A DNA stretch of 64,000 bases from Ruminococcus sp. (GTDB lineage: Bacteria; Bacillota; Clostridia; Oscillospirales; Ruminococcaceae), in the NCBI GenBank assembly GCA_017519145.1, contig JAFWTA010000033.1, forward strand, positions 41,331 through 105,330. Reading direction: 5' to 3'. Positions 27,295 to 45,924 of the stretch are shown in pieces. A model generated the notes under the pieces. That model was not told where the DNA came from, searched no databases, and saw only the letters and a program-made list of their open reading frames with translations. Within the stretch, counting starts at the first letter, position 1. Each line of letters starts with the position of its first letter. A program made the position numbers and the translations under genes.

Positions 27295-28173
27295 TTACTG
27301 TCCTGCGTTATAGATAACGTCGGTTTCTCCAACACCTTTATCGATAGACAGCTTATACTTGCCGCCGTGCTTTGTGAAGTCCTCAGCAGGGTTTGTGAGA
27401 CAGAAGGTAATGTCGCCCACACCGCCGTCAGCGTCGATGTCACCGTTCATGGTGCCTGTGAATTCAAAGTCGCCTACGCCCATGTCAAGGTCCATACCGC
27501 CTGCAACAGCGTCCCTGATGGTAATATCGCCTGCACCGCCGTCTATATCGAGAAGACCCGAGCAGTCTATGCCTGTGAAATGCAGGTCGCCTGCACCGCA
27601 GTCTATTTCTGCCTTGCTGCATTCGATGCCGCTGAAGTTCACATCACCTGCACCGCAGTTAACGTCAAGGAAAGAGCAGTTTACAGAGGCTATTTTTGCA
27701 TCTCCTGCGCCCATATCAAGTACAAAGCGGTCATATTCATTATCGGGGAGCATGAGCTTTACGACCGGTTTATAATTCATGGGGTGGAAAACAAGTCCAA
27801 AGGGGATAGCGCGGTTCTTCTTTGAATCGTAACCCATAGTGAACCTGCTTCCCGATACCTTTGCCTCAAAATGCTCGGAAACATCAGTAGCGTCCACATG
27901 GATACTATCATCGCTGCTCTTTTCGATGATGAAGTCGCCCCAGTCCAGATCCAGCTCAAGCTCTGTCACATTTGCGCCGTCGAAGACCTCATTGTAGTCC
28001 TTTACTTTATAATACTTGTCCTTGTCGCTGTTTATGTACATGATATATCCTGTGATGAGTAGGATAAGTCCGAGAGCTATTGCGATGACAGCTGCCCAGA
28101 GAGCTCCGCTGCCCTTTTTCTTATTAACGGGAGCAGACTGCTGCTCCTGTACATTGATGTTGTTTTCAGGCAT
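27295..28173 (-). CDS. Membrane-anchored DUF4097-type beta-helix protein
   Basis: 292-residue protein. A cytosolic Lys-rich N-terminus of about 25 residues is followed by one membrane helix (ALWAAVIAIALGLILLITGY). Then comes a repetitive beta domain with units such as VNCGAGDVNFSG, IDCGAGDLHFTG and IDGGAGDITI, the parallel beta solenoid of the DUF4097 family. ATG 28173 is chosen because AAAGGAGG lies 8 nt upstream; it overlaps the previous stop by 8 bp. DUF4097 proteins usually sit with DUF1700 and PadR genes and are linked to envelope stress, but their biochemistry is not settled. Confidence 0.85.
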   Translation of the reverse strand: MPENNINVQEQQSAPVNKKKGSGALWAAVIAIALGLILLITGYIMYINSDKDKYYKVKDYNEVFDGANVTELELDLDWGDFIIEKSSDDSIHVDATDVSEHFEAKVSGSRFTMGYDSKKNRAIPFGLVFHPMNYKPVVKLMLPDNEYDRFVLDMGAGDAKIASVNCSFLDVNCGAGDVNFSGIECSKAEIDCGAGDLHFTGIDCSGLLDIDGGAGDITIRDAVAGGMDLDMGVGDFEFTGTMNGDIDADGGVGDITFCLTNPAEDFTKHGGKYKLSIDKGVGETDVIYNAGQ

Positions 28174-28828
28174 TTTCTTTTCCTCCTTTTTTGAAGAGAC
28201 CAACTACCCAGCCGCAGAACCTCTTGATACCTCTGCCGATAGCAGGGATAACTGCGCTGAATGCGGGCTTGCATATAAGTATAACCAGACCTGTGAGAAT
28301 GAGACCTGCTCCCAAGAACATGATACCCACGGCAGGGAACTCGGTGAGTGCGACTATGCCGCCGATAAGGAGACCGATAGCTGCTGCGAAGAAAGCGATA
28401 ACAAGTGAAATGAGAACGACGATGAGTGCGAATAAGAGTGAAACTACCACACAGACGATGGGGAACCAGATGGGGAAGGTGAGTATGCCGAGGACGATGC
28501 CGAGAGCGATACTTCCGCCCGAAGCCTTTTTCTTAGGGGGAACATAACCGCCCATCATGGGACCCTGCTGCTGCTGTCCCTGAGGACCGTCCATTCTCTG
28601 GGGAGGCATCACGGGAGCACCGCCGACGTGGATACCGCTCTCACGGAGGATATTTACAGCCACATCCTCGGGTGAGCCCATAGCAGCGGCAGTTTCTTCT
28701 TCCTTGCCGAAGCCTGCATCGAGGAATACCTCCTCGTAATACGAAAGTGCATCATTGATATCATCAGAAGGCAGACCGCCTCTTTCGAGGTTATTTCTCA
28801 GCCTTGTAAGAAATTCAAGTTTGTTCAT
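28166..28828 (-). CDS. DUF1700 family membrane protein
   Basis: 220-residue protein. The N-terminal 70 residues (MNKLEFLTRLRNNL..., then SYYEEVFLDAG) are the helical DUF1700 domain. A Pro/Gln/Gly-rich linker follows, then four hydrophobic helices between about 115 and 200. Start 28828 has GGGAG upstream; the PadR gene overlaps it by 14 bp. In related operons DUF1700 partners with DUF4097 and is controlled by the adjacent PadR repressor. Confidence 0.87.
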   Translation of the reverse strand: MNKLEFLTRLRNNLERGGLPSDDINDALSYYEEVFLDAGFGKEEETAAAMGSPEDVAVNILRESGIHVGGAPVMPPQRMDGPQGQQQQGPMMGGYVPPKKKASGGSIALGIVLGILTFPIWFPIVCVVVSLLFALIVVLISLVIAFFAAAIGLLIGGIVALTEFPAVGIMFLGAGLILTGLVILICKPAFSAVIPAIGRGIKRFCGWVVGLFKKGGKENA

Positions 28829-29147
28829 TGTATTCAGCTCCCTCATTCAATAAAATACTGTCGATTTTTTTCTTATGGCTGCGCCATTCTTCTCTGTACT
28901 CCTCAAGGGAATCGTTACCCTTGGGAGTAATTCGGTAATACCTTCTGTTCCTGCCCATGAATTCCTTGTCATAGGTCTCGAGCATCTCGCCCTTCTGCAA
29001 TCGTCTCAGCACGGGATAGAGAGTGGATTCCGAGATATCCACCGCCTTCCGCAGATACTGAGTGATCTCATAGCCGTAGGTGTCGTTGTTCTGAACGATG
29101 GAAAGCACCATGGCATCAAGGAGACCTGCGTTTATAGAAAATCCCAT
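28815..29147 (-). CDS. PadR family transcriptional repressor
   Basis: 110-residue winged-helix regulator with the PadR signature (LDAMVLSIVQNNDTYGYEI, then ISESTLYPVLRRLQK and RRYYRITPKG). ATG 29147 follows AAAGGAG by 7 nt; a longer in-frame extension to 29171 has no ribosome site. It heads the operon and very probably represses its own promoter through the palindrome at 29208-29230. Confidence 0.92.
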   Translation of the reverse strand: MGFSINAGLLDAMVLSIVQNNDTYGYEITQYLRKAVDISESTLYPVLRRLQKGEMLETYDKEFMGRNRRYYRITPKGNDSLEEYREEWRSHKKKIDSILLNEGAEYNEQT

Positions 29148-29207
29148 AGTGTAACTCCTTTCTGAAACCATATAGTATTTTGTGAACTGTAATATCTGGT
29201 TTCTGAT

Positions 29208-29413: not shown

Positions 29414-31150
29414 TCAGTTGTCCTTGTGGAGGAGAGTATTCTGTATTTCGAGGGCGTCATTTGCAGTAATGCCGTGGCCTGTCTCATAGACATCGCCGTT
29501 GAATCTGCCGCGCTCTGAGATATCGTACTTGTCGGGGTTAGCCATAGACTGCATGATGAAGATAGCATCTGCAAGATCGGTCTCGCCGTCGCAGTTAGCG
29601 TCGCCGCTGCGGTCTATCTCATCATTGAGCATAGCGCTTGTGGCAGCACTCATATTGATCTCAGGAACAGGGATCACAGGCGCATACATTATACCCATTT
29701 CTGCTCTGAGTTCCTCACGGTAAGTCATTATCTTATCCTGATAGTTGTCCAAGATGCCGGTATGACCTTCTGAGCTTTCAATAATATCAACTATTACAAT
29801 CTGATAAATCGATATATCATATATATCACCGCTGAAGCCGTTTCCGTTAAGGTCAAAGTGATTTTCAAAGACATCGATGATCTCGGGAAGGAGATCGGAA
29901 TCAACGCCCATTATTGTGTTTCTTCTGTCACTGAGGAATATATCGGAAGCGTATATATCCTTTTCGTTGATAACGCCGTCACAGGTCGGGTCGGGAAGTG
30001 TCACTTCACCGTTATTATAAGCCGTGATAAAGTTATCGTAATCCTTGGAGAAATCCCTTCCTATCATTGTGCAGTATTCGTTTTCGGGAAGAATGAGATC
30101 ATAAGCGCCTCTTACTAATGTTCCGTAATTCTGTACTCCGAAGGAATATGAAGGCAGGAAGCTGTCATAATAGTCATTATCCATGTACTTGGCTTCGGGC
30201 TTGCCGTCACGCTCTATAAGATACCATACGTAGTATAGATCTTCATTATTTATAGGAGTCATTCTTTCGATGTTGTTATAGAGCTTCTCACTGCGTTCCC
30301 ACTGTTCATCTGTGATAGATGTTCTGAAATTGACCGGTGTTGGAACTCCGTTGATAATTCTCTCCAGACTCTTTTCATACTTGGTAAGGCGCTGCTGCTT
30401 GTATAATTCATATATGCAGCCATCCTCATATGTGAGTTCTCCGTCGCCGTTGACATCATAATCAAATCTGCCGTTTTCTATGTTCTCCTTGAATGCACTG
30501 TAAAGGCCTCTCAACGCTTCGCACCATACGGAAAAATTCTTTGAAAACTCATTTGCAAGATGAACGTCGCCCCTGCGATGACCGATGATCCAGCCGTTTT
30601 CCTCTTTGAGTCTGAGGGCTTCTTCCTCATTCTGTGCCTTCATAGCCTCAAAATCCTCATATGTAACGAACTTATCAGGCTCACGGCGGATAGTTTCCTC
30701 ATCAACGAATTCATCAAACTCGTCGAGGTAGCCCAAACGTGTCTTATCCCACTTTTCATATGTTGCTGACCCAAGATCGGCAAAAGTGACCTCGTGGGAG
30801 ATGATATAATACTGCATGAGATAATCCGCATCAGAGAATGTGCATTCATGATAAGAATCAATATGACCGTTTTGGTTGTAATCGGCTACGCTGGCAATAT
30901 TTTCAGCGATTTCATCATCTGCTCCATAGCCCTGTACATATGCGAAAAGATCAACACAGTCCTTGATATCGAACTTTCCGTCCATATTGATATCTGTGTC
31001 GAACTCGCCGCTTTCCATAGCTTCGATACTTGAATACGCTTCATAGGCAGCAAAGCTTCTTGGAACTTCGCTGATGGCAGCGTGAACTGATGTTGCAGCG
31101 GCATTTGTCAATATCATAAGTGCCGCAGTAAAAGGTAACAGCTTTTTCAT
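29414..31150 (-). CDS. Secreted dockerin protein from internal start (short form)
   Basis: The same frame read from ATG 31150, giving 578 residues. AAAGGAG (31164-31158) stands exactly 7 nt before it, and the product begins with a good signal peptide (MKKLLPFTAALMILTNAAA, then a TSVHA-like cleavage site). Three EF-hand regions precede a C-terminal dockerin, which should dock the protein to cohesins on the cell surface. No catalytic or carbohydrate-binding module is recognised in the middle. The paralogous locus gives a short form of 584 residues from an identically placed start. Whether both forms are made is not shown by sequence alone. Confidence 0.65.
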   Translation of the reverse strand: MKKLLPFTAALMILTNAAATSVHAAISEVPRSFAAYEAYSSIEAMESGEFDTDINMDGKFDIKDCVDLFAYVQGYGADDEIAENIASVADYNQNGHIDSYHECTFSDADYLMQYYIISHEVTFADLGSATYEKWDKTRLGYLDEFDEFVDEETIRREPDKFVTYEDFEAMKAQNEEEALRLKEENGWIIGHRRGDVHLANEFSKNFSVWCEALRGLYSAFKENIENGRFDYDVNGDGELTYEDGCIYELYKQQRLTKYEKSLERIINGVPTPVNFRTSITDEQWERSEKLYNNIERMTPINNEDLYYVWYLIERDGKPEAKYMDNDYYDSFLPSYSFGVQNYGTLVRGAYDLILPENEYCTMIGRDFSKDYDNFITAYNNGEVTLPDPTCDGVINEKDIYASDIFLSDRRNTIMGVDSDLLPEIIDVFENHFDLNGNGFSGDIYDISIYQIVIVDIIESSEGHTGILDNYQDKIMTYREELRAEMGIMYAPVIPVPEINMSAATSAMLNDEIDRSGDANCDGETDLADAIFIMQSMANPDKYDISERGRFNGDVYETGHGITANDALEIQNTLLHKDN

Positions 31151-31669
31151 TTCAAAACTCCTTTCGATTTCTTTATTAACAGTTGTAGTAGTTGTGATAC
31201 GTCCTGTAACGGCAGCAGTTGTGCGGCTGCCTGATGATCGGTGTGCAGTTGTCTGCGAGCCGGCTCCCAGTGCAGGAGAAGCTGTGCCTGCGGTATTATT
31301 CCCTGCATACGATGTCACTGCCTGAGCAGTTGTGACTGAGGCGCCGTTATACGACGTTTCAGCTGTGCCGTTATAAGCAGTATCAGCGGTGGTGACGGGC
31401 TGAGCGGAGACTGCTTCTGTCACGATAACAGAGCCCTCTCTGAAGCCGCCGCCCCTTGGGTCGGGATTTGATCTCAGGTTGGTCCATAGACCTATTGCCA
31501 GAGCGGCAGCCGCTGCAGCGGCAGTAACTCTGAAAACAACTGGTATGGTGTATTTCCGCTTTTCTTCCTGAGCAGAAGCGACCTCAGCCTGTGTAAGAAA
31601 TTCATATTTATGCTTTGCATCGGGGAAATTGAAGGAATCCCTGATATCCTGTTTAAGTTTTTTATTCAA
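29414..31669 (-). CDS. Anti-sigma-like membrane protein fused in frame to a dockerin protein (long form)
   Basis: 751-residue reading frame with a TTG start at 31669 (GGAGG upstream), 15 nt after the ECF sigma stop. Residues 1-41 are cytosolic and charged, 42-62 form a membrane helix, and 63-170 are a Thr/Ala/Ser-rich external linker, as in ECF anti-sigma factors. Without a stop the frame enters MKKLLPFTAALMILTNAAA at M174, a signal-peptide-like segment with its own ribosome site. The rest carries several EF-hand/dockerin-type loops (INMDGKFDIKD, VNGDGELTYED, LNGNGFSGD) and a C-terminal type I dockerin (GDANCDGETDLADAIFIMQS). A long form would tie a dockerin to sigma control; see the internal start at 31150. 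The paralogue at 43657 has the same layout. Confidence 0.8.
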   Translation of the reverse strand: MNKKLKQDIRDSFNFPDAKHKYEFLTQAEVASAQEEKRKYTIPVVFRVTAAAAAAALAIGLWTNLRSNPDPRGGGFREGSVIVTEAVSAQPVTTADTAYNGTAETSYNGASVTTAQAVTSYAGNNTAGTASPALGAGSQTTAHRSSGSRTTAAVTGRITTTTTVNKEIERSFEMKKLLPFTAALMILTNAAATSVHAAISEVPRSFAAYEAYSSIEAMESGEFDTDINMDGKFDIKDCVDLFAYVQGYGADDEIAENIASVADYNQNGHIDSYHECTFSDADYLMQYYIISHEVTFADLGSATYEKWDKTRLGYLDEFDEFVDEETIRREPDKFVTYEDFEAMKAQNEEEALRLKEENGWIIGHRRGDVHLANEFSKNFSVWCEALRGLYSAFKENIENGRFDYDVNGDGELTYEDGCIYELYKQQRLTKYEKSLERIINGVPTPVNFRTSITDEQWERSEKLYNNIERMTPINNEDLYYVWYLIERDGKPEAKYMDNDYYDSFLPSYSFGVQNYGTLVRGAYDLILPENEYCTMIGRDFSKDYDNFITAYNNGEVTLPDPTCDGVINEKDIYASDIFLSDRRNTIMGVDSDLLPEIIDVFENHFDLNGNGFSGDIYDISIYQIVIVDIIESSEGHTGILDNYQDKIMTYREELRAEMGIMYAPVIPVPEINMSAATSAMLNDEIDRSGDANCDGETDLADAIFIMQSMANPDKYDISERGRFNGDVYETGHGITANDALEIQNTLLHKDN
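31158..31164 (-). promoter_or_regulatory. Internal ribosome binding site for the short dockerin form
   Basis: AAAGGAG, 7 nt before ATG 31150, inside the open frame of the anti-sigma-like region. It is a stronger site than that of the TTG start at 31669 and is matched in sequence and spacing at 44156-44162. Confidence 0.75.
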
Positions 31670-31684
31670 GCCTCAGCCCTCCTC

Positions 31685-32131
31685 TCAATCAAGTGTTTGT
31701 TTGAGGTGCCGTAGGATGCCTTTGATACGTCTGCTCATTCTGAATCTCGACATACCGAAAAGCTCACCCAGAACACCTATGGGAACATCATTTATGTATC
31801 GCAGAATGATTATCTCCTTGTCCTCCTCGGGAAGATTTTTGATAGCGTTTCCCAGAGCAACATTGGTGAGGATAAAGTCCTCATAATCCTTATCATCTGC
31901 AATATTTTCATCGAGCTCCTCAGCTGTCCTGCGATGAAATGCGTCCTTGCACAGGTTTCCTGCGATCGTATAGAGATAGTGCAGTTCTTTTCCCATATCG
32001 CGATAATGCGGACTTTCGAGGAACCGAAGGAAGGTCTCCTGTGTCAGATCTTCTGCAATATCACGGTTATGGATCTTGTAATAGCAATAGCGGAATATTT
32101 TGTCATATTGGTCATTGATATCAATCGACAC
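31685..32131 (-). CDS. ECF-type RNA polymerase sigma factor
   Basis: 148-residue sigma factor. Region 2 is RYCYYKIHNRDIAEDLTQETF, and region 4 is LPEEDKEIIILRYINDVPIG with a helix-turn-helix (LGELFGMSRFRMSRRI). GTG 32131 has GGGAGG 7 nt upstream and is preferred over the ATG at 32149, which overlaps that site. The next gene encodes its likely membrane anti-sigma partner fused to a dockerin protein. Targets are unknown. Confidence 0.87.
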   Translation of the reverse strand: MSIDINDQYDKIFRYCYYKIHNRDIAEDLTQETFLRFLESPHYRDMGKELHYLYTIAGNLCKDAFHRRTAEELDENIADDKDYEDFILTNVALGNAIKNLPEEDKEIIILRYINDVPIGVLGELFGMSRFRMSRRIKGILRHLKQTLD

Positions 32132-32237
32132 ATTCAAACCTCCCTTCACTAATGATTAACTGAAAAGACGGGGCAGATGTGCAGAAATAATTGTAAACAT
32201 TTTGTGAACGGATCTGCGCCGTGGGATCATACCTATG

Positions 32238-33243: not shown

Positions 33244-35241
33244 TCAATACGGAACGGTGAGCTTGCCCACTCTCCATGAACCGTCGGGCTGTACCACAAC
33301 GGAGAATTCTGTCTGTTCTGTCCAGGGGGGAGTATCGTCTACATTTGCGCCGCCGTAGCTGTTTTCAACGGCGAAGAATATCTCGTCGTCAGTTCTGCGG
33401 AGTATTCCGAGGACCTCTGTGCCAAGGTAGTATATATGGCTTCCCTTTCCTCCGGCAAACCAGTATACCTTGCCGTCCCTTTCAAAATAAGGGCTTCCGT
33501 CGATAAAGCTGTTCTCGGGGTAGCGGTCGCTGAAGGTCTGATGGTACATTTCGTTTATCTCGTCTATGCTGCTGACATTTCTGACAAGGTATCCGCTGAA
33601 TCCGTCACCAAAGTCACGGTATCCCTCAGAGCTTGTGTCAATATCCAGCAGATCGGGTGCTCCGCCGTTGAACTTTCCTTGTGTTTCGAGGGCGTTCTGA
33701 TAGGCTTCCTTTCCGCGTTCAAGAGTGTCAGGAGCTTCGTTCTCCAGCTGACTGTGAGGTTCAGCTCTTTTCCATGCATAGTCCGAGAGAGACTTTATTG
33801 TGTCTGTCAGCTCGGGAGAAACGCTGTATTTCTTTTTTTCGTATCCGATAACTGCAACATTATTGTCGTAAAAATAGTATGTCTGCAAATACAGGTTTTC
33901 GTCGATTCCCAAACGGCAGACTTCCTCACCGCACTCGGCATCGTCGGGAAGAACTTCCCATGAGGCAGCCTTTAAAGCATCAGCAACAGCAGTATTCATG
34001 GCATTATCATACAGATTTAAAAGCTTTGATGTGTCGTCGGTGCGGCTTATCTGCATAAGGAAAGGTTTGCAATGCTTTATTTCTTCAGCCGGATCCATAT
34101 TATCCAGCTGTGCAAAAGCTGCACCTACGAAAGCGGTCTGCAGGTTTCCGCGGTCCTGAGATTTAAGCATATATAAGCCCGATCCTGCTTCTCCTGTTGA
34201 TTTATCGCTGTATTCAGCATAAGCATATCCATTGGAGTATACATTGAGAGAGTAATTAAAGAGGCCGTCTTGGTCAGAGCATCTGAAAGAAAAGAAGCAG
34301 ATATCATCACCAAAATTAGGCTGGCAGTCTGCCTCTTTCCATTCCAGCTCCGTGAATATGCTCATCGCTTCGGGAGCGCCCTCACAGCTGAAAGCTGCCT
34401 CGGCATCCCAGCTGCCATTTAAACAGAACCGGCAGTTCTTTGCAGGAACTGTGAAGATCTTACCGGCAGGAGGAATATAAACGTCTGCATAATCGGGATT
34501 GAGCGAGGATGTGGTAAGCCATACTGAGTTGATATTGTTTAAGTCATTGACGTCAAGATAGATAAGCTCATCGCCTGCTTCGGGATCGTACTTTATAGCC
34601 TCGCGGACTGCATTTTCGGTATCAAGGTCTATCTCATATCTCTCCTTGGAGGAGTTATCCTCGTAACAGATGGTGTGGTCGCCGTAGAGGGTGAGCCGGC
34701 AGGGCTTGGTGCCGTTCATGAGGTAAATGAGCTCACTTTCTCCGTCGGGCAGGGGAGTATCGGGCGATATCTTGTCCCACTCGCCCTCGTTGAGAGCGGT
34801 GAGGAGAGCTGTCCTGTTCTCCTCATTTGGTTCAAATACCGCAGGAGCTATGGCGGCATTGCTTAGCCTTACACGGCAGCCGCTGAGGTCGCCGAAGGGA
34901 GACATTGCCCGTTCTTCTATTTCCGAGCTGTCCACCTTGGGCTGAGTGCGGTGCCTTTTCAGGAGTATACCGCCTCCTGTCACAGCACCTGCTGCGATGG
35001 CAATGGCAGCTGCCGCCGCAGCAAACTTGAGCCATGCAGGTCTCTTATAGACGTCAACGCCCGAGACCTCCATGTCATTTTTATATTCGCTTTCCTTGGT
35101 TCTTTCTTTATATATCTTTCTGCTCATTGCAAACATTCTCTCCTTTTCTTCATCGGAAGCAGGACAGTCCGCCGCAATTATCTTTATTGTATCTTCATCG
35201 GCGTTTTCGAGAGCGTCAAGGTTCAATTCCTTATCGTTCAT
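33244..35241 (-). CDS. Large membrane anti-sigma-like protein with extracytoplasmic sensor region
   Basis: 665-residue protein. An acidic cytosolic N-terminus of about 68 residues precedes one membrane helix (WLKFAAAAAAIAIAAGAVTGGGILL, about 69-93). The remaining 570 residues are outside. They contain beta-rich units of unknown family, and a C-terminal stretch (about 540-665, with DEINEMYHQTFSDRY and GSPYFERDGKVYWFAGG) that resembles IseA-type cell-wall hydrolase inhibitor domains; this match is tentative. AAAGGAGG precedes the ATG by 7 nt. It follows the ECF sigma gene by 13 nt, so it is probably its anti-sigma factor and senses an envelope or extracellular signal. Unlike the other two loci it has no dockerin. 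Confidence 0.75.
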   Translation of the reverse strand: MNDKELNLDALENADEDTIKIIAADCPASDEEKERMFAMSRKIYKERTKESEYKNDMEVSGVDVYKRPAWLKFAAAAAAIAIAAGAVTGGGILLKRHRTQPKVDSSEIEERAMSPFGDLSGCRVRLSNAAIAPAVFEPNEENRTALLTALNEGEWDKISPDTPLPDGESELIYLMNGTKPCRLTLYGDHTICYEDNSSKERYEIDLDTENAVREAIKYDPEAGDELIYLDVNDLNNINSVWLTTSSLNPDYADVYIPPAGKIFTVPAKNCRFCLNGSWDAEAAFSCEGAPEAMSIFTELEWKEADCQPNFGDDICFFSFRCSDQDGLFNYSLNVYSNGYAYAEYSDKSTGEAGSGLYMLKSQDRGNLQTAFVGAAFAQLDNMDPAEEIKHCKPFLMQISRTDDTSKLLNLYDNAMNTAVADALKAASWEVLPDDAECGEEVCRLGIDENLYLQTYYFYDNNVAVIGYEKKKYSVSPELTDTIKSLSDYAWKRAEPHSQLENEAPDTLERGKEAYQNALETQGKFNGGAPDLLDIDTSSEGYRDFGDGFSGYLVRNVSSIDEINEMYHQTFSDRYPENSFIDGSPYFERDGKVYWFAGGKGSHIYYLGTEVLGILRRTDDEIFFAVENSYGGANVDDTPPWTEQTEFSVVVQPDGSWRVGKLTVPY

Positions 35242-35254
35242 AACTGTACCTCCT

Positions 35255-35821
35255 TTAAAGTGAAATGTTCATAGCGGTGAGCGTTTCCCTGAGCTTTTTA
35301 AGCGCGCGGCTGCATCGGACGCGGACAGCTTCGGGAGTCAGTGACACAAGCTTTGATATCTCTGTGGAACTGCGCATGAAAAAATATTTCTGTATGATTA
35401 TAGTAGAATCGGGTTCACCCAGCAGCTCCACACATTTTATCAGCGAGCCTCTCAGTTCTTTTTTCTCCACGGCATCGGCAGTGTCATCGGGAGACTCTAT
35501 CTCAGCGGCTTCCTCATCGTCAATGGATATACTGCCGAATTTGTTTTTCGTGAGCCTTTTATACATATCGGCAGCCTTGCGTCTTGCAACAGTGCCAACG
35601 AAGCCCGTCGGGTCTCCCTCAAATGCCCTGCGTTCATCAAAGTGCATATATACGTCAGCAAAGACGTCCCCCACACATTCCTCTATATCCTCGCGGCTCG
35701 CGCAGCTTCGCAGGCGGCTGAAAACGATAGTGTAAACGTAATTGAAGTATTCATCGAAAAGGGAGCGCTGAGCGTTCTCCTCGGACTGAGCCGCAGCTTT
35801 ACGGTATTCTTTCTGTGTCAT
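35255..35821 (-). CDS. ECF-type RNA polymerase sigma factor
   Basis: 188-residue sigma factor with region 2 (FDEYFNYVYTIVFSRLRSCA, then EDIEECVGDVFADVYMHFD) and region 4 (LIKCVELLGEPDSTIIIQKYF, then helix-turn-helix SSTEISKLVSLTPEAVRVRCSR). ATG 35821 has AAGGTGAG close upstream; the longer frame to 35866 lacks a site. It is paired with the anti-sigma-like gene 13 nt downstream. Confidence 0.88.
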   Translation of the reverse strand: MTQKEYRKAAAQSEENAQRSLFDEYFNYVYTIVFSRLRSCASREDIEECVGDVFADVYMHFDERRAFEGDPTGFVGTVARRKAADMYKRLTKNKFGSISIDDEEAAEIESPDDTADAVEKKELRGSLIKCVELLGEPDSTIIIQKYFFMRSSTEISKLVSLTPEAVRVRCSRALKKLRETLTAMNISL

Positions 35822-35931
35822 GATCTCACCTTCTTTCAAAGCGTCCGACGCGTCATCGGCTTTCATAATATCTATTCTGCAAAAGCAGCATGACCGTAAC
35901 AGCTTCAGAATTATTTTTTTATTTTAATTAT

Positions 35932-36100: not shown

Positions 36101-38032
36101 TTAGTTTTCTTCAAGCTGAGTTGCAGCGCCGATGAATACGGGAACATCGTTCTTATCAAGTATCATGTAAACAAAGGGTCTGGTAAGCTCGATGTGTATT
36201 TCTTTCTTTTCGGGTACGGGTGCGGTGGCTGCGATCATCATAACAGCGGTAACTGCGGCTGCCTTTGTGCCTTTTTCTGCCATCTCTATTCTGGTCTTGT
36301 GGATAACATCGCCGATATAGAGCGGATCAGCACCCTCGACAGAGAGATCGTTGATCTTTGAGAAGTCAGCCTTGGTCTCATCAAATGCATCTTCCATACC
36401 AAGGTCTCTGAGCACATCTTTCAGTGTTGCGTCGTAATTGTACTTGAACTTGGGGATAGTAACGAAAAGATCGAAAGTACTGGGATCTTCGCTCTGCTTC
36501 AGTCCCTCAAGGAGCTTGTCAGCGTCAAGGTTATTGACATAGCTCTCGATGTCGTTCTCCTTGGGGAGGATGCCGACAAAGCTGAAGTCTCTGTTCTTGT
36601 AGTATTTTCTGAATGCGTCAGCATCGCCGAGGTCATAGTAGCAGTACTCCTGACTGTACATTCCCTTGATGTCGTGCTTTTCACCGTTGATGTCAGTGAA
36701 TTTCTGGTCGTGGACATCAGTTTCTTCGTAGATTTTTTCCCATTCAGCCTCAAAGTAGAGGGTGTTGATGAGAGTCATCATTGGGATCACATCAGCTTTG
36801 GGGTCGAGGTCTCCGTGTTTGAAGAGCTGAGGTATCATGCTCTTGGTATTATTATTGACCCAGCTGTTTATATCGTCAACAGTGGTATCATTAAATGGAG
36901 TCTGGTATATCTCGGAATCGTAGAACTTCTTGTTGGTCTCAAGGAAGCCGTCCTGCACCTTGAATGTGGGATCGTCCCTGAACCAGATGGAGTTGGCAAG
37001 ATAGAGCTTTTCCTTCTTCTCATCGGGGAGGTTGTTCTTATAGTAAGCCATGTACTCGTTGATCTGGTCAAGAGTGAGGCCGCTTCCCAGAAGCTGTTCC
37101 ATCTGATCGCGGGTATTGCCGTCAGCGCCGTTTGCAGTCATTGCAAGGGCAGTTGAGATGGAAACAGGGGAGATAAGGAAGTTCTTGCTGCCGTTTTCGC
37201 GCGGTGAGAAGGACTTCTTCAGGATATTCACGCCAAGATTCATCTCAGCCTTGGCAAACTCCTCATCAGCAGCCTTTCCCTCGGAAGCAAGCACATCTAC
37301 GGTATTGTCAAGGCGGATACTTCCGATTGCAGAAGCGCCGTTGAATTCCTTGGTCTTGCCGAGAGTGTAGTCTATGACCTGCTGGAGGTCTTCCTCGTCT
37401 ATCTCAAGGTTCCTGTTGATATCGGCATTGGTGAACTGAGCATCGGTAAGGGGCTCAGCCAGCTTGTCGGTGAGAGCCTTTCTGTACATGATGACGTCGA
37501 AGCTGTCGATGAATCCGTCGTCATTGATATCGCCGTAATAGTGGATATCAGCGGATCTCAGAGAGGTTATCTCATAGATCTGGTAGTCGCCTGAACTGTA
37601 ATTTTCGTAACCGTCAGACTCATTCAGGAGATCGGGATAGTACTCGAAAGAGGTGAAGCTGATAGTTACTACCGAGCCTTCATCCACCTGAGACATGATC
37701 TCTCTGTTCCTTTCCTGCATCAGTCCGAGATCTAAATATTCCTGATCACTGAGATTATACGGGTCAAACAAGTAGCTGAAGTTTTTCATACTGTCGTAAC
37801 CGTAAACATAGTATGAAGATTCAGCCGGCTTGGTCATACCTTCAAATCCATGATCAGATGTCCTTGTGAGAAGCAGATCCCTGATCTCGTATTCGTATAA
37901 TTGTCTTGATCCTTCTGCGGCTGCCGCAGTGCCGGCGGAGCTGCTGAAGGGGATGCTGCCGACAGAGCTGAGAGCCAGTGCAAAGCTCAGTACGCCTGCG
38001 GTAACTTTGGTGATTTTTTTCATGTTTTCCAT
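36101..38032 (-). CDS. Secreted serpin with dockerin module
   Basis: 643-residue protein. A signal peptide (about 1-36) is followed by a spacer region and a dockerin at about 165-235 with two calcium loops (DINDDGFIDSFD, DINRNLEIDEED). The serpin domain runs from about 255 to the end. The hinge KGTKAAAVTAVMMIAATAP has the small residues needed for loop insertion, so it should be an inhibitory serpin. Counting from hinge Gly as P15 places Ala-Thr at P1-P1', which suggests elastase- or subtilisin-like targets (inference). Start 38032 has AAAGGAG 8 nt before it. Dockerin-serpins are known from cellulosome bacteria, where they are thought to protect the complex from proteases. Confidence 0.93.
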   Translation of the reverse strand: MENMKKITKVTAGVLSFALALSSVGSIPFSSSAGTAAAAEGSRQLYEYEIRDLLLTRTSDHGFEGMTKPAESSYYVYGYDSMKNFSYLFDPYNLSDQEYLDLGLMQERNREIMSQVDEGSVVTISFTSFEYYPDLLNESDGYENYSSGDYQIYEITSLRSADIHYYGDINDDGFIDSFDVIMYRKALTDKLAEPLTDAQFTNADINRNLEIDEEDLQQVIDYTLGKTKEFNGASAIGSIRLDNTVDVLASEGKAADEEFAKAEMNLGVNILKKSFSPRENGSKNFLISPVSISTALAMTANGADGNTRDQMEQLLGSGLTLDQINEYMAYYKNNLPDEKKEKLYLANSIWFRDDPTFKVQDGFLETNKKFYDSEIYQTPFNDTTVDDINSWVNNNTKSMIPQLFKHGDLDPKADVIPMMTLINTLYFEAEWEKIYEETDVHDQKFTDINGEKHDIKGMYSQEYCYYDLGDADAFRKYYKNRDFSFVGILPKENDIESYVNNLDADKLLEGLKQSEDPSTFDLFVTIPKFKYNYDATLKDVLRDLGMEDAFDETKADFSKINDLSVEGADPLYIGDVIHKTRIEMAEKGTKAAAVTAVMMIAATAPVPEKKEIHIELTRPFVYMILDKNDVPVFIGAATQLEEN

Positions 38033-38063
38033 AGTGATTACTCCTTTCATAGTAAATAGATTG

Positions 38064-43115: not shown

Positions 43116-43670
43116 ATGGATAATGGTTCAGGTAGCTACGACCGTTATCTTGCCGGCGATGATTCGGCTATGGGTGATCTCGTCCGAGAATACAAGGACG
43201 GACTTACCTTGTTCCTTAACAGTTTTACCAACGATATTTTTGATGCGGAAGAGCTCATGGAAGAGACCTTCTTCAGACTGGCGTACAAAAAACCTAAATA
43301 TTCAGGCAAAAGCTCCTTCAGGACATGGCTCTATGCCATTGCAAGAAATCTTGCTATCGACTACCTGAGAAAGCGAAAACGTACTGTGACAGTTTCTGTG
43401 GATGAGTGCTATGATCTGAGCTCGGGGCAGGATATCGAAAAGGACTATCTGCTCGAGGAGCGTAAGGCGATCATTCACAGGCTGATGCAGAGACTGAAAT
43501 ATGAATACCGTCAGGTCATATGCCTGATCTATATCGAGGGATTTTCAAATTCGGAAACTGCGGTCATCATGCATAAGAGCAGCCGGCAGATAACCAATAT
43601 GCTGTATCAGGCAAAAAAAGCTCTCAGATCAGAGCTGGAAAAGGAGGGGATAACGTATGCGGGATTATGA
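43116..43670 (+). CDS. ECF-type RNA polymerase sigma factor
   Basis: 184-residue sigma factor. Region 2 is NDIFDAEELMEETFFRLAYKK with SSFRTWLYAIARNLAIDYLRK, and region 4 is LKYEYRQVICLIYIEGFSN with SETAVIMHKSSRQITNMLYQ. ATG 43116 follows AAAGGAG by 8 nt. It overlaps the next gene by 14 bp. Upstream, CTTACGTCTAA (about 43066-43076) resembles an ECF -10 element, so autoregulation is possible but uncertain. Confidence 0.9.
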   Translation: MDNGSGSYDRYLAGDDSAMGDLVREYKDGLTLFLNSFTNDIFDAEELMEETFFRLAYKKPKYSGKSSFRTWLYAIARNLAIDYLRKRKRTVTVSVDECYDLSSGQDIEKDYLLEERKAIIHRLMQRLKYEYRQVICLIYIEGFSNSETAVIMHKSSRQITNMLYQAKKALRSELEKEGITYAGL

Positions 43671-45924
43671 TGAAGTTACTCAGACCGTACTGAGGCGTCG
43701 GGATGAAGCGATAGCTAAGGACAGGCGCAGAGCTGTTATAATGAGGCGGAGCGCTGCTGCTGCACTGTCTGTATGCGCGGCTGCATTTGTAGGGTTCGGT
43801 GTTTTCAGGATGAACAGCAAGGATATCGAGCTTCCCGATGACGGCGGTAACATCATTGCGGAAACTACTGTTCCGCCCGTAAGTCAAAGCATTTCCACCT
43901 CCGCAGTCACCACCGACAGGACTGCTTCGACCATAACCACGTTCACATCGGTGAAGGATACGGCTGTGACGACAGCTGTATCGGCAGCAGCACTTACAAC
44001 TGCGCCGGAAACCGCTTATACAGCAGCACAGACCACCGGATTATCCACAGCACCTGCGGCAGCTGCGGCAACGTCATTCATCCCTCGGACGACAGCCGCT
44101 GTGCCTGCTGCGGCAACAACAGTTACTACTGCAAAAAACAAGGATATTTACCTTGAAAGGAGCGTTGAAATGAAAAAGCTTACACCATTTGCTGCGTCAC
44201 TTATCATGATGGCAAACGCTGCTGCCCCTCTCAATACAGCAGCTTCTCCCGAGACACCTGCAACTGCGGCGGTTTCGGGCTATAACGAATTCAGCATTCT
44301 TGCGGGAATGGATAACGGGGATACGGATATTGATATAGATATGGACGGACAGTTCGGCATAAAGGACTGCTTCTATCTTATGGCATATGATTACCGAAAG
44401 GAACTGGATCCTGCCATCGAGAACAATATACTCTCCATCGCCGACTTTGACATGAGCGGCTCGGTTGACCATGCCGACTCCGATATTCTGATGAAGTACC
44501 TTGTTACAAGGAAAAAGGTGAAGGGCGAATATCTCTCAAAGGATTACTATGCTGACTTCGATATCGTTACATATACACAGGGCGAGCCCATATACGGTCC
44601 TGCTTACCCCGAGATCGTGGAGATATGTAATTCTCCCGACTTTGACAAGGAGGCATATACTCAGGAAGAGCTTGATGATATGTTCGAGAAGGAACTCGCG
44701 CAGACCATAGTAGGCTATGAGCAGATTCCCCACGGCTTTGCCGATACATTCATCGACTATCTCAGGTCGTTTGTCAAGAACACTCTCGGCGGCGGCGTAT
44801 TCAGCAACAGCCTTGAGATGGGAGACATAGTCCTCGATATCGACGGTGACGGACAGGAGACATTTGATGATGTCTGCGTATATATGGTGTTTGTCAATCA
44901 GCGGTGGAATAAGGAGAAGATACAGAGAAATCATGACTGGATAGACTCGCTCCTCCCGATCGATCAGGATCCCGAAGGACTTCTCGCTCTCAGAGAGCCG
45001 GACTTCGTAACATCATTGACCGATGAAGAATGGGCTGTATGCGAGGCAGACTACAGCTTCTTCATCAATGTGCTGAAACTGCATGACTTTGAAATGTACG
45101 CAACAAACTATCTTCTTGAGGATAATGGCAGACCCGGCGACATATACTTCGACAATGACCACTACACAGCGATCCATCCCGAGGCTGAGCAGCTCTATTT
45201 CGGAGATTTTGTCAGAGGCAATTATGACAGGATGTATCCCATTGATGAAAAGATGGTCTACGATGAGTCCTATATGCATGAGCACTCCAATGACTATTAT
45301 GAAAGCGTTGCGGCAGGAGAGGTAACTCCTGTGGACGCAACAGGCGACGGTTTCCTTGACTACAAGGATATCCTCATCGCTGATATGTACCTCTATGACT
45401 ATAAAAACAGCGTCCCCAGAGAGCAGTCCATCATTCCCGATGATGTGTGGAGCTTCTTCACAGACAGCCTCGACATCAACGGAAACGGCTTATACGGAGA
45501 CCTTACCGATGTTTCTATCTATCAGTTCTCGATATATGTTTACAGATGCACGAAACTGGGTGAACAGGAGCTGCCCTATGACAATCGCGGGGAATATCTC
45601 TCTTATATGGCAGATTACCGTGCTGAGCTCACAGCAGCTAAGTTCGGCGAAAGAGCAGGGGTACAGCCTGCGCCCGTTATGATCGAGAGCAGACTTGAAA
45701 AGACGTTACAGGACCCTTCAATAGTACGAAACGGTGACGCAAACTGCGATGGTGATACCGACCTTGCCGATGCTATCTTCATCATGCAGTCCATGGCTAA
45801 CCCCGACAAATATAACCTCTCAAATCTGGGCAGGTTCAACGGTGACGTCTGCGAGACAGGCGGCGGCATCACTGCAAACGACGCTCTTTCCATACAGAGC
45901 AGTCTGCTGAGCGGTGCATATTGA
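43657..45924 (+). CDS. Anti-sigma-like membrane protein fused in frame to a dockerin protein (long form)
   Basis: 755-residue frame, paralogue of the one at 29414. Residues 1-28 are cytosolic and basic, about 30-50 form a membrane helix, and 51-165 are a Thr/Ala-rich linker. The frame then runs without a stop into MKKLTPFAASLIMMANAAA at M172, a signal-peptide-like segment. Beyond this are EF-hand regions (DIDMDGQFGIKD, DIDGDGQETFDD, DATGDGFLDYKD, DINGNGLYGD) and a C-terminal type I dockerin (GDANCDGDTDLADAIFIMQS) almost identical to its paralogue. The start at 43657 overlaps the sigma stop by 14 bp, with AGGAGGGG upstream, so sigma and long form are translationally coupled. Confidence 0.82.
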   Translation: MRDYDEVTQTVLRRRDEAIAKDRRRAVIMRRSAAAALSVCAAAFVGFGVFRMNSKDIELPDDGGNIIAETTVPPVSQSISTSAVTTDRTASTITTFTSVKDTAVTTAVSAAALTTAPETAYTAAQTTGLSTAPAAAAATSFIPRTTAAVPAAATTVTTAKNKDIYLERSVEMKKLTPFAASLIMMANAAAPLNTAASPETPATAAVSGYNEFSILAGMDNGDTDIDIDMDGQFGIKDCFYLMAYDYRKELDPAIENNILSIADFDMSGSVDHADSDILMKYLVTRKKVKGEYLSKDYYADFDIVTYTQGEPIYGPAYPEIVEICNSPDFDKEAYTQEELDDMFEKELAQTIVGYEQIPHGFADTFIDYLRSFVKNTLGGGVFSNSLEMGDIVLDIDGDGQETFDDVCVYMVFVNQRWNKEKIQRNHDWIDSLLPIDQDPEGLLALREPDFVTSLTDEEWAVCEADYSFFINVLKLHDFEMYATNYLLEDNGRPGDIYFDNDHYTAIHPEAEQLYFGDFVRGNYDRMYPIDEKMVYDESYMHEHSNDYYESVAAGEVTPVDATGDGFLDYKDILIADMYLYDYKNSVPREQSIIPDDVWSFFTDSLDINGNGLYGDLTDVSIYQFSIYVYRCTKLGEQELPYDNRGEYLSYMADYRAELTAAKFGERAGVQPAPVMIESRLEKTLQDPSIVRNGDANCDGDTDLADAIFIMQSMANPDKYNLSNLGRFNGDVCETGGGITANDALSIQSSLLSGAY
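44156..44162 (+). promoter_or_regulatory. Internal ribosome binding site for the short dockerin form
   Basis: AAAGGAG, 7 nt before ATG 44170, inside the anti-sigma-like reading frame. Identical in sequence and spacing to the site at 31158-31164. Confidence 0.75.
44170..45924 (+). CDS. Secreted dockerin protein from internal start (short form)
   Basis: The same frame from ATG 44170 gives a 584-residue secreted protein with an N-terminal signal peptide and a C-terminal dockerin. AAAGGAG (44156-44162) lies exactly 7 nt before it, as in the paralogous locus, and both internal starts are preceded by codons for ERS-(V/F)-E. The mid-region aligns with the paralogue throughout and shows no recognised enzyme fold. 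Confidence 0.65.
   Translation: MKKLTPFAASLIMMANAAAPLNTAASPETPATAAVSGYNEFSILAGMDNGDTDIDIDMDGQFGIKDCFYLMAYDYRKELDPAIENNILSIADFDMSGSVDHADSDILMKYLVTRKKVKGEYLSKDYYADFDIVTYTQGEPIYGPAYPEIVEICNSPDFDKEAYTQEELDDMFEKELAQTIVGYEQIPHGFADTFIDYLRSFVKNTLGGGVFSNSLEMGDIVLDIDGDGQETFDDVCVYMVFVNQRWNKEKIQRNHDWIDSLLPIDQDPEGLLALREPDFVTSLTDEEWAVCEADYSFFINVLKLHDFEMYATNYLLEDNGRPGDIYFDNDHYTAIHPEAEQLYFGDFVRGNYDRMYPIDEKMVYDESYMHEHSNDYYESVAAGEVTPVDATGDGFLDYKDILIADMYLYDYKNSVPREQSIIPDDVWSFFTDSLDINGNGLYGDLTDVSIYQFSIYVYRCTKLGEQELPYDNRGEYLSYMADYRAELTAAKFGERAGVQPAPVMIESRLEKTLQDPSIVRNGDANCDGDTDLADAIFIMQSMANPDKYNLSNLGRFNGDVCETGGGITANDALSIQSSLLSGAY

Follow-up and report, generated by a model that had tools for sequence, protein, structure and literature searches.

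Layout of the nested locus

The stretch analyzed here (the window) comprises 64,000 nucleotides of a Ruminococcus sp. genome (GenBank assembly GCA_017519145.1, contig JAFWTA010000033.1, positions 41,331 to 105,330), and positions below are counted from its first letter. A single frame without stops, encoding 751 residues from a TTG at 31669, lies on the minus strand directly 3' of an extracytoplasmic function (ECF) sigma factor gene (locus 1, Table 1). The frame encodes in order a short N-terminal tail, a membrane helix, a Ser/Thr-rich linker, the sequence AAAGGAG-N7-ATG with its ATG at 31150 (codon 174), the signal peptide-like stretch MKKLLPFTAALMILTNAAATSVHAA, a body with EF-hand-like Ca loops, and a C-terminal dockerin. 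The initial annotation had described a stop-free frame in which an anti-sigma-like N-terminus runs into a signal peptide and a dockerin, with AAAGGAG placed 7 nt before the internal ATG, and both features are indeed present. It had also taken the internal Shine-Dalgarno (SD) sequence to be better than that of the TTG, which is wrong: the internal SD scores -12.4 kcal/mol and the upstream one -16.2 kcal/mol, so that only the start codon is better inside. The sigma stop codon overlaps the ribosome site of the frame that follows.

A diverged second copy of the nested arrangement (locus 2) was found in the same window, with its internal ATG at 44170, and a third copy (L142) lies on contig C2 of the same genome. 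The sigma protein of locus 1 matched PF04542 (41.3 bits) and PF04545 (32.9 bits), both above cut-off, and the TIGR02937 scores of 62.6 bits at locus 1 and 89.8 bits at locus 2, against a cut-off of 42.9, identify ECF sigma factors at both loci.

An AlphaFold model of the locus 1 long form contained two N-terminal helices, a helix at residues 44-66, a disordered linker, a helix at residues 171-190, and the dockerin. The body between them (about residues 205-660) was predicted to be nearly all-helical, with a predicted local distance difference test score (pLDDT) mostly of 60-90 and weaker values around residues 310-370. Hydropathy and the model are both consistent with a membrane helix that precedes the linker and the outer module, although the model itself carries no information on membrane topology or binding. 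In a fold comparison of the model the clear matches were dockerins only; the body was not searched alone.

The internal start among relatives

The sequence AAAGGAG-N7-ATGAAAAA occurs 12 times in the source genome (94% complete), and its reversed control does not occur at all. Nine of these sites have at most 35 open in-frame codons upstream, like ordinary gene starts, so that outside the nested loci the sequence looks like a start in this genome. The remaining three, which have 249, 174 and 172 open codons upstream, belong to the nested loci.

Relatives were collected with a profile (A1) built from an alignment of 11 proteins around the internal ATG. Because A1 was cut at a script-found M-[KN]-[KH] motif, its invariant Met is there by choice and the search favors Met and the E-R-S residues; the codon tests below are free of this protein-level leaning. 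Of 125 genomes of the genus that were searched, 70 had matches. A family-wide draw gave matches at 1e-6 in 21 of 297 genomes, the source genome included, and the best match outside it was weak (1.3e-10). A full-length alignment (A2) of 18 members was built from loci retrieved with another peptide, the Ca loop, leaving out the unfused L073; E169, R170 and M174 are invariant across its 18 rows. Seventeen of 18 loci found through the Ca loop were examined, the site DNA of L078 being taken from L101, and 16 were nested and one (L073) was unfused. These loci overlap with the other surveyed genomes and are not independent of them. Contigs carrying matches include those of R. flavefaciens Y1, ATCC 19208, ND2009 and XPD3002.

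The 103 rows analyzed are the best 104 among the matches listed, minus G380:C157, with weaker rows left out; they come from 102 sources, namely 100 fetched stretches and the two window loci. A row was called fused when more than 100 in-frame codons stood upstream of the match, and L085, at a contig end, was counted as unfused though it is probably fused. By this definition 82 of the 103 rows were fused, and 80 of the 82 adjoined an ECF sigma frame. Of the two fused rows without sigma, L122 is an unfused gene preceded by a frame that is open by chance, and L143 begins like an anti-sigma protein; both were dropped from the codon and SD comparison. Sigma genes were sought with phmmer at 1e-3, using three window sigmas as queries, within the fetched stretches, some of which are cut by contig ends. 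A Fisher P computed on these rows ignores relatedness and is not used as proof.

The two-part architecture recurs where the initial annotation had suggested looking for it, in 80 sigma-adjacent frames from 44 genomes of the one genus Ruminococcus. Parts separated by a stop codon, the outcome it had named as speaking against it, were seen in none of the 80 sigma-adjacent members found, and none of the 21 unfused rows had a same-strand sigma gene in its fetched stretch, where a separate anti-sigma gene without a sigma was not searched for. We find it scarcely credible that the fused frame is left over from fusions of recent date or was created by the assembly. Unfused relatives do exist (20 of the 103 rows plus L122), but the 80 fused genes fall into 35 clusters, with 2922 of 3003 pairs at most 45% identical, and the arrangement is present a second time in the same window. 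The linker, moreover, varies from 60 to 180 residues (median about 125, 31% Ser+Thr), yet the frame is open in all 80.

Some members depart from the common layout. L143 (G410:C22) has a nested frame, an anti-sigma-like start and an internal EGR-xx-MKK, with no sigma found upstream, and is perhaps an orphan head. L117 has two sigma-like frames upstream, one stopping 134 nt short of the long-frame start and the other reaching it; here the sigma gene is perhaps disrupted or misread. L021 (G022:C49) combines an anti-sigma-like frame, a Ser/Thr linker and a Ca-loop region, with no internal signal peptide on reading, which would be a long-only design.

The internal ATG was retained in 78 of the 80 sigma-adjacent fused frames. 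An SD of -10 kcal/mol or better preceded 64 of the 78 internal sites; the same was true of 11 of the 1138 remaining in-frame ATGs in these genes. The upstream start, chosen by its best SD, had an SD of -6 or better in 80/80. The suggestion of two starts in one frame, giving a membrane form beside an ECF sigma gene and a dockerin form with its own signal peptide, is therefore supported by conservation. Sixty-five genes, from 37 genomes, had an internal SD of -9 or better; in 58 of them the spacing to the ATG was 7 nt, and the codon after the ATG was AAA in 61 of 78. Since SD-like sequences within genes have been linked to pausing, the internal SD might be a programmed pause that aids membrane insertion of the long form and serves as no start. 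The retained ATG, the prevailing 7-nt spacing and the frequent AAA codon all argue against such a pause, to which we give almost no credence.

Codon choice at the site is constrained beyond what the protein alone explains. The Arg position was encoded by AGG in 55 of 57 cases, compared with 421 of 2111 Arg codons elsewhere (20%), and the Ser position by AGY in 56 of 56, compared with 1633 of 4165 elsewhere (39%). In the pairs sharing no more than 45% identity, site positions with a common residue had a codon identity of 0.93 (Arg), 0.79 (Glu) and 0.54 (Ser), compared with 0.43, 0.56 and 0.32 elsewhere. The SD is, in addition, spelled through differing residues (ERS, EGS, EGG, HRR and EEV) and in more than one codon phase. 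A strong SD was kept in 30 of the 35 clusters, and its state changed six times on a tree of the mature short form; this tree is a quick one with long branches, and change counts on it are approximate. The locus thus carries an in-frame nested gene, in the sense that the internal start has a conserved ribosome-binding site to itself and that this site is constrained more tightly than the protein requires.

These data also bear on whether the long form is the only product, with ERS-xx-MKK and the hydrophobic stretch a protein motif (a second membrane segment or a protease site) and the SD its by-product. In favor of such a motif, no interrupted sigma-adjacent member was found, and some members (L087, L092 and L096) retain the hydrophobic stretch without a strong SD. 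However, the codon constraint and the varied spelling of the SD go beyond a protein motif, many unfused homologues (e.g., L103 and L148) also start with an SD, an ATG and a signal peptide, and L159 has lost the stretch altogether, so that the long form need not have it. We regard a long form alone as very unlikely.

Cleavage of a single product, by signal peptidase or another protease acting at the internal signal peptide and freeing the dockerin part, seems just as unlikely. Signal peptide-like features do persist in the 65 strong-SD members, with K or R near the start in 65/65 and an A-x-A pattern in 65/65, although both tests are loose. A conserved ribosome site and ATG would nevertheless be needless for cleavage, and by general topology rules a second helix that follows the first membrane helix would face the wrong way for signal peptidase.

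Sigma partner, dockerin and a possible feedback

Four sigma types were distinguished among 78 rows. Sigma similarity tracked the N-terminal tail (Spearman 0.73) and not the short form (0.14). The sigma type changed 16 times on the short-form tree, where the minimum is 3; when the types are taken singly, 8, 9, 6 and 2 changes are already required by the starred branches. Locus 1 itself has a type-1 head, and its short form is closest to those of type-0 operons such as locus 2. Because the sigma type follows the tail and not the short form, the nested part behaves as a cassette exchanged between heads, and the comparison indicates that the sigma and the N-terminal tail, which together form the head, have been exchanged in evolution independently of the nested secreted module. 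The long form, encoded directly 3' of the sigma gene and cognate with it, occupies the place of an anti-sigma factor, and its N-terminus would be a sigma-binding anti-sigma domain.

The codon constraint at the internal start, the in-frame fusion in 80 genes and the pairing of the sigma with the N-terminus led us to a two-product reading. Very probably, as far as comparative sequence data can tell, the core of the system consists of an ECF sigma gene and, behind it, a single frame in which two starts are conserved; these would yield a membrane anti-sigma sensor and a secreted soluble copy of its outer part.

The locus 1 dockerin falls under the Pfam cut-off (19.8 versus 22.9 bits). It matches the solved group 1 dockerin of R. 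flavefaciens, 5m2o_B, with an E of 1.1e-15; Met46, Gln47 and Lys54 are retained, and positions 39, 40 and 43 are occupied by Leu, Ala and Ile. By both sequence match and cohesin-contact residues it is of the R. flavefaciens group 1 type; dockerins of this group, whose contact residues have been defined and which bring enzymes to scaffoldins, bind the cohesins of ScaA and ScaB (PMC5429695). Proteins of the same genome carry similar dockerins (52 to 68% identical). Eleven were fetched and 10 scanned for families; among them were three GH9 proteins, a GH10/GH11, a GH44 and two pectate lyase proteins (one with a pectinesterase), as well as a Cel124-like protein, a GDSL esterase and one with BNR repeats. 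The genome gave 11 cohesin matches, 10 of them above cut-off, and both forms would be expected to bind the same cohesins as the enzymes. A 2010 survey of R. flavefaciens FD-1 dockerin proteins lists 118 with unknown regions, and the word sigma is absent from the part of its text consulted (PMC2930009). P-Doc-1 of R. flavefaciens 007 (PMC3672088) could be a short form.

ECF-like promoter pairs 5' of the sigma genes were conserved, by eye, within most of the listed groups and differed between groups. The simplest reading of these motifs is that the operon regulates itself and chiefly delivers the short form, and wider targets are possible. As a separate observation, G000:C15:24356-24385 and C52:11958-11987 (L193 and L196) share CTGAGAGAAAA...CGTCTAA; they are possibly promoters of another ECF sigma, or the sharing may be due to chance.

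These elements can be assembled into a mechanism. Translation from the first start would give a membrane protein whose cytosolic head is the cognate anti-sigma domain, with the linker, the helical EF-hand-like body and the dockerin outside. The second, in-frame start would give a secreted protein that is a soluble copy of this outer part. Because both forms carry the same group 1 type dockerin, we propose that the two forms and the cellulosomal enzymes all compete for one set of scaffoldin cohesins, so that the membrane form would report whether surface cohesins are free or filled. A change in occupancy would release the sigma, which would transcribe its own operon, and the extra short form would fill the cohesin sites and reset the sensor. 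Taken by itself, this occupancy sensing is a tentative proposal, to which we give well under an even chance. Marginally more speculative is the wider picture of a bacterial counterpart to soluble (decoy) receptors, in which a secreted copy of the sensor competes for docking sites, cellulosome occupancy is fed back through a self-regulated ECF sigma, and the cassette is swapped between heads across the genus.

Several observations weigh against parts of this picture. The N-terminal tail matched no known anti-sigma family in Pfam and NCBIfam scans. The contact position Ser-40 is Ala in the locus 1 dockerin, as it is in the enzymes of its own genome. The second hydrophobic stretch poses a topology problem within the long form; it is less hydrophobic than the first helix (mean 1.33 versus 1.97). 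Searched in its own genome with up to two mismatches, the locus 1 promoter motif matched its own promoter only, and the locus 2 motif gave one exact match, also its own, and five matches with up to two mismatches, compared with 10 for the reversed control. As the motifs match their own operons only, a link to other cellulosome genes is not supported. A regulon defined by promoter motif was rejected, since no match beyond the operons' own promoters stands above control.

Others concern the internal start. A per-gene synonymous shuffle gave P < 0.05 in 50 of 80 rows (L122 and L143 included) and not in the other 30. Across 36 long window frames, 10 of the 359 in-frame ATGs lying past codon 60 reached -10, two of them the nested sites. 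A strong SD before an in-frame ATG is therefore not rare enough in the window to be decisive, and it is conservation across homologues that settles the reality of the internal start. The SD-ATG region was not unusually unstructured, with a mean unpaired probability of 0.454 versus 0.451 in control stretches of the same genes, and RNA structure masking or exposing the start was rejected on these values. The SD was weak (above -9) at 13 of the 78 sites, L087, L092 and L096 among them, and two fused frames lack the internal ATG: L154 has GTC instead, and L159 has lost the entire signal peptide. Some of these members therefore look long-only, which suggests that the nested start is dispensable for the membrane form and, judging by L159, that the second hydrophobic stretch is as well. 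In four members with a weak internal SD (L152, L157, L162 and L165), a further same-strand sigma frame ends about 3.3 kb beyond the point where the long frame begins, which would fit sigma/long-frame pairs arranged in tandem.

Window features and comparison with known systems

Table 1. Positions of the two nested loci and their predicted parts in the window
Feature	Position	Strand	Basis
Locus 1
Putative ECF-type promoter, TGCACAT-16 nt-GTTAATCAT	32152..32183	-	Conserved 5' of same-type sigma genes; sole match (up to 2 mismatches) in own genome
ECF sigma factor, 148 residues from SD-supported GTG 32131 (mechanical reading frame from 32149)	31685..32131	-	PF04542, PF04545, TIGR02937
Long-form SD GAGAGGAGGG, overlapping sigma stop, 7 nt 5' of TTG	31677..31686	-	-16.2 kcal/mol
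Long form, 751 residues, transmembrane anti-sigma-like, predicted extracellular dockerin	29414..31669	-	Model mean pLDDT 62.5
N-terminal tail, about residues 1-43, presumed sigma-binding	31541..31669	-	Low-confidence helices 3-12 and 18-36; co-divergence with sigma
Predicted membrane helix, about residues 44-62	31484..31540	-	Hydropathy; model helix 44-66
Ser/Thr-rich linker, about residues 63-173	31151..31483	-	31% Ser+Thr; pLDDT 24-30 over most
Internal SD GAAAGGAG, encoding E-R-S, 7 nt 5' of ATG	31158..31165	-	-12.4 kcal/mol
Short form, 578 residues, predicted secreted dockerin protein from internal ATG	29414..31150	-	Sequence and conservation of internal start
Predicted short-form signal peptide MKKLLPFTAALMILTNAAATSVHAA (putative cleavage site)	31076..31150	-	Sequence, hydropathy, model helix 171-190
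Dockerin, residues 689-747, group 1 type	29429..29605	-	Pfam scan, structure and residue comparison
Locus 2
Putative ECF-type promoter, CTAAGACA-15 nt-CGTCTAA	43046..43075	+	Conservation within sigma group
ECF sigma factor, 184 residues from ATG 43116	43116..43670	+	TIGR02937
Long form, 755 residues, overlapping sigma stop	43657..45924	+	Reading frame
Internal SD GAAAGGAG	44155..44162	+	-13.0 kcal/mol
Short form, 584 residues, predicted signal peptide and dockerin (about 45730-45921, from sequence)	44170..45924	+	Sequence

Another ECF-like sigma/anti-sigma-like pair adjoins locus 1 in the window (33244-35241 and 35255-35866, minus strand); leaving aside the start of its long frame, no in-frame start there carries an SD of -10 or better, the best being -9.3 at residue 39. 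Between the nested loci, the minus-strand frame at 36101-38050 looks like a dockerin-serpin protein (dockerin match C40:78697-78867; serpin from sequence), and R. flavefaciens FD-1 has dockerin-serpin proteins (PMC2930009). Downstream of locus 1, genes for a PadR regulator, a HAAS-domain protein and a DUF4097 protein stand in a row (27295-29171, minus strand).

The initial annotation had likened the locus to RsgI/SigI of Clostridium (Acetivibrio) thermocellum, in which a sigma gene is followed by that of a transmembrane anti-sigma factor with an extracellular sensing module, in multiple copies (PMC3413522, PMC6056542). The likeness would lie in the way of working: here too, in a cellulosome producer and in multiple copies, a sigma gene is paired with that of an anti-sigma-like protein, for which a membrane helix and an outer module are predicted. 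Membership of the family does not hold, because the partner here is an ECF sigma in which region 4 was found, whereas SigI has a C-terminal domain in place of region 4 (PMC6056542). The outer module is a dockerin protein rather than a carbohydrate-binding module, and a conserved internal start would give rise to a secreted copy. The RsgI N-terminal domain was absent from the 11 Pfam families (E 0.1) matching the 18 A2 members and from the NCBIfam matches of six long proteins. According to a 2024 survey, RsgI receptors occur only in Acetivibrio-type cellulosome bacteria (PMC11557425).

The locus resembles ECF sigma/transmembrane anti-sigma pairs in general in its two-gene operon, its cognate pairing and its own ECF-like promoter, but here no known anti-sigma domain was matched and a secreted product would be nested in the frame. 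RpnL/RpnS is an example of a gene within a gene with an in-frame internal start (PMC10327210). In contrast to nested genes of that type, the nested product here has its own predicted signal peptide and would leave the cell, and its full-length partner would be a membrane regulator. The dockerin resembles R. flavefaciens group 1 dockerins in its match to 5m2o_B, in the three retained residues and in the Leu and Ile at hydrophobic contacts, and differs in the Ala at position 40 and in being attached to a sensor frame rather than to an enzyme.

We recognized no description of an ECF anti-sigma-dockerin frame, or of its nested start, in the open-access papers searched. Annotation that assigns a single start would overlook one product of each such gene. 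The genus-wide ECF sigma operons with dockerin-bearing sensors are concrete candidates for substrate sensing and cellulosome adjustment in Ruminococcus, and a membrane regulator and its soluble copy made from one frame, with a movable secreted cassette, would, if true, be an unusual feedback design. In-frame nested genes and transmembrane anti-sigma sensors are both already known; it is their combination here that appears new.

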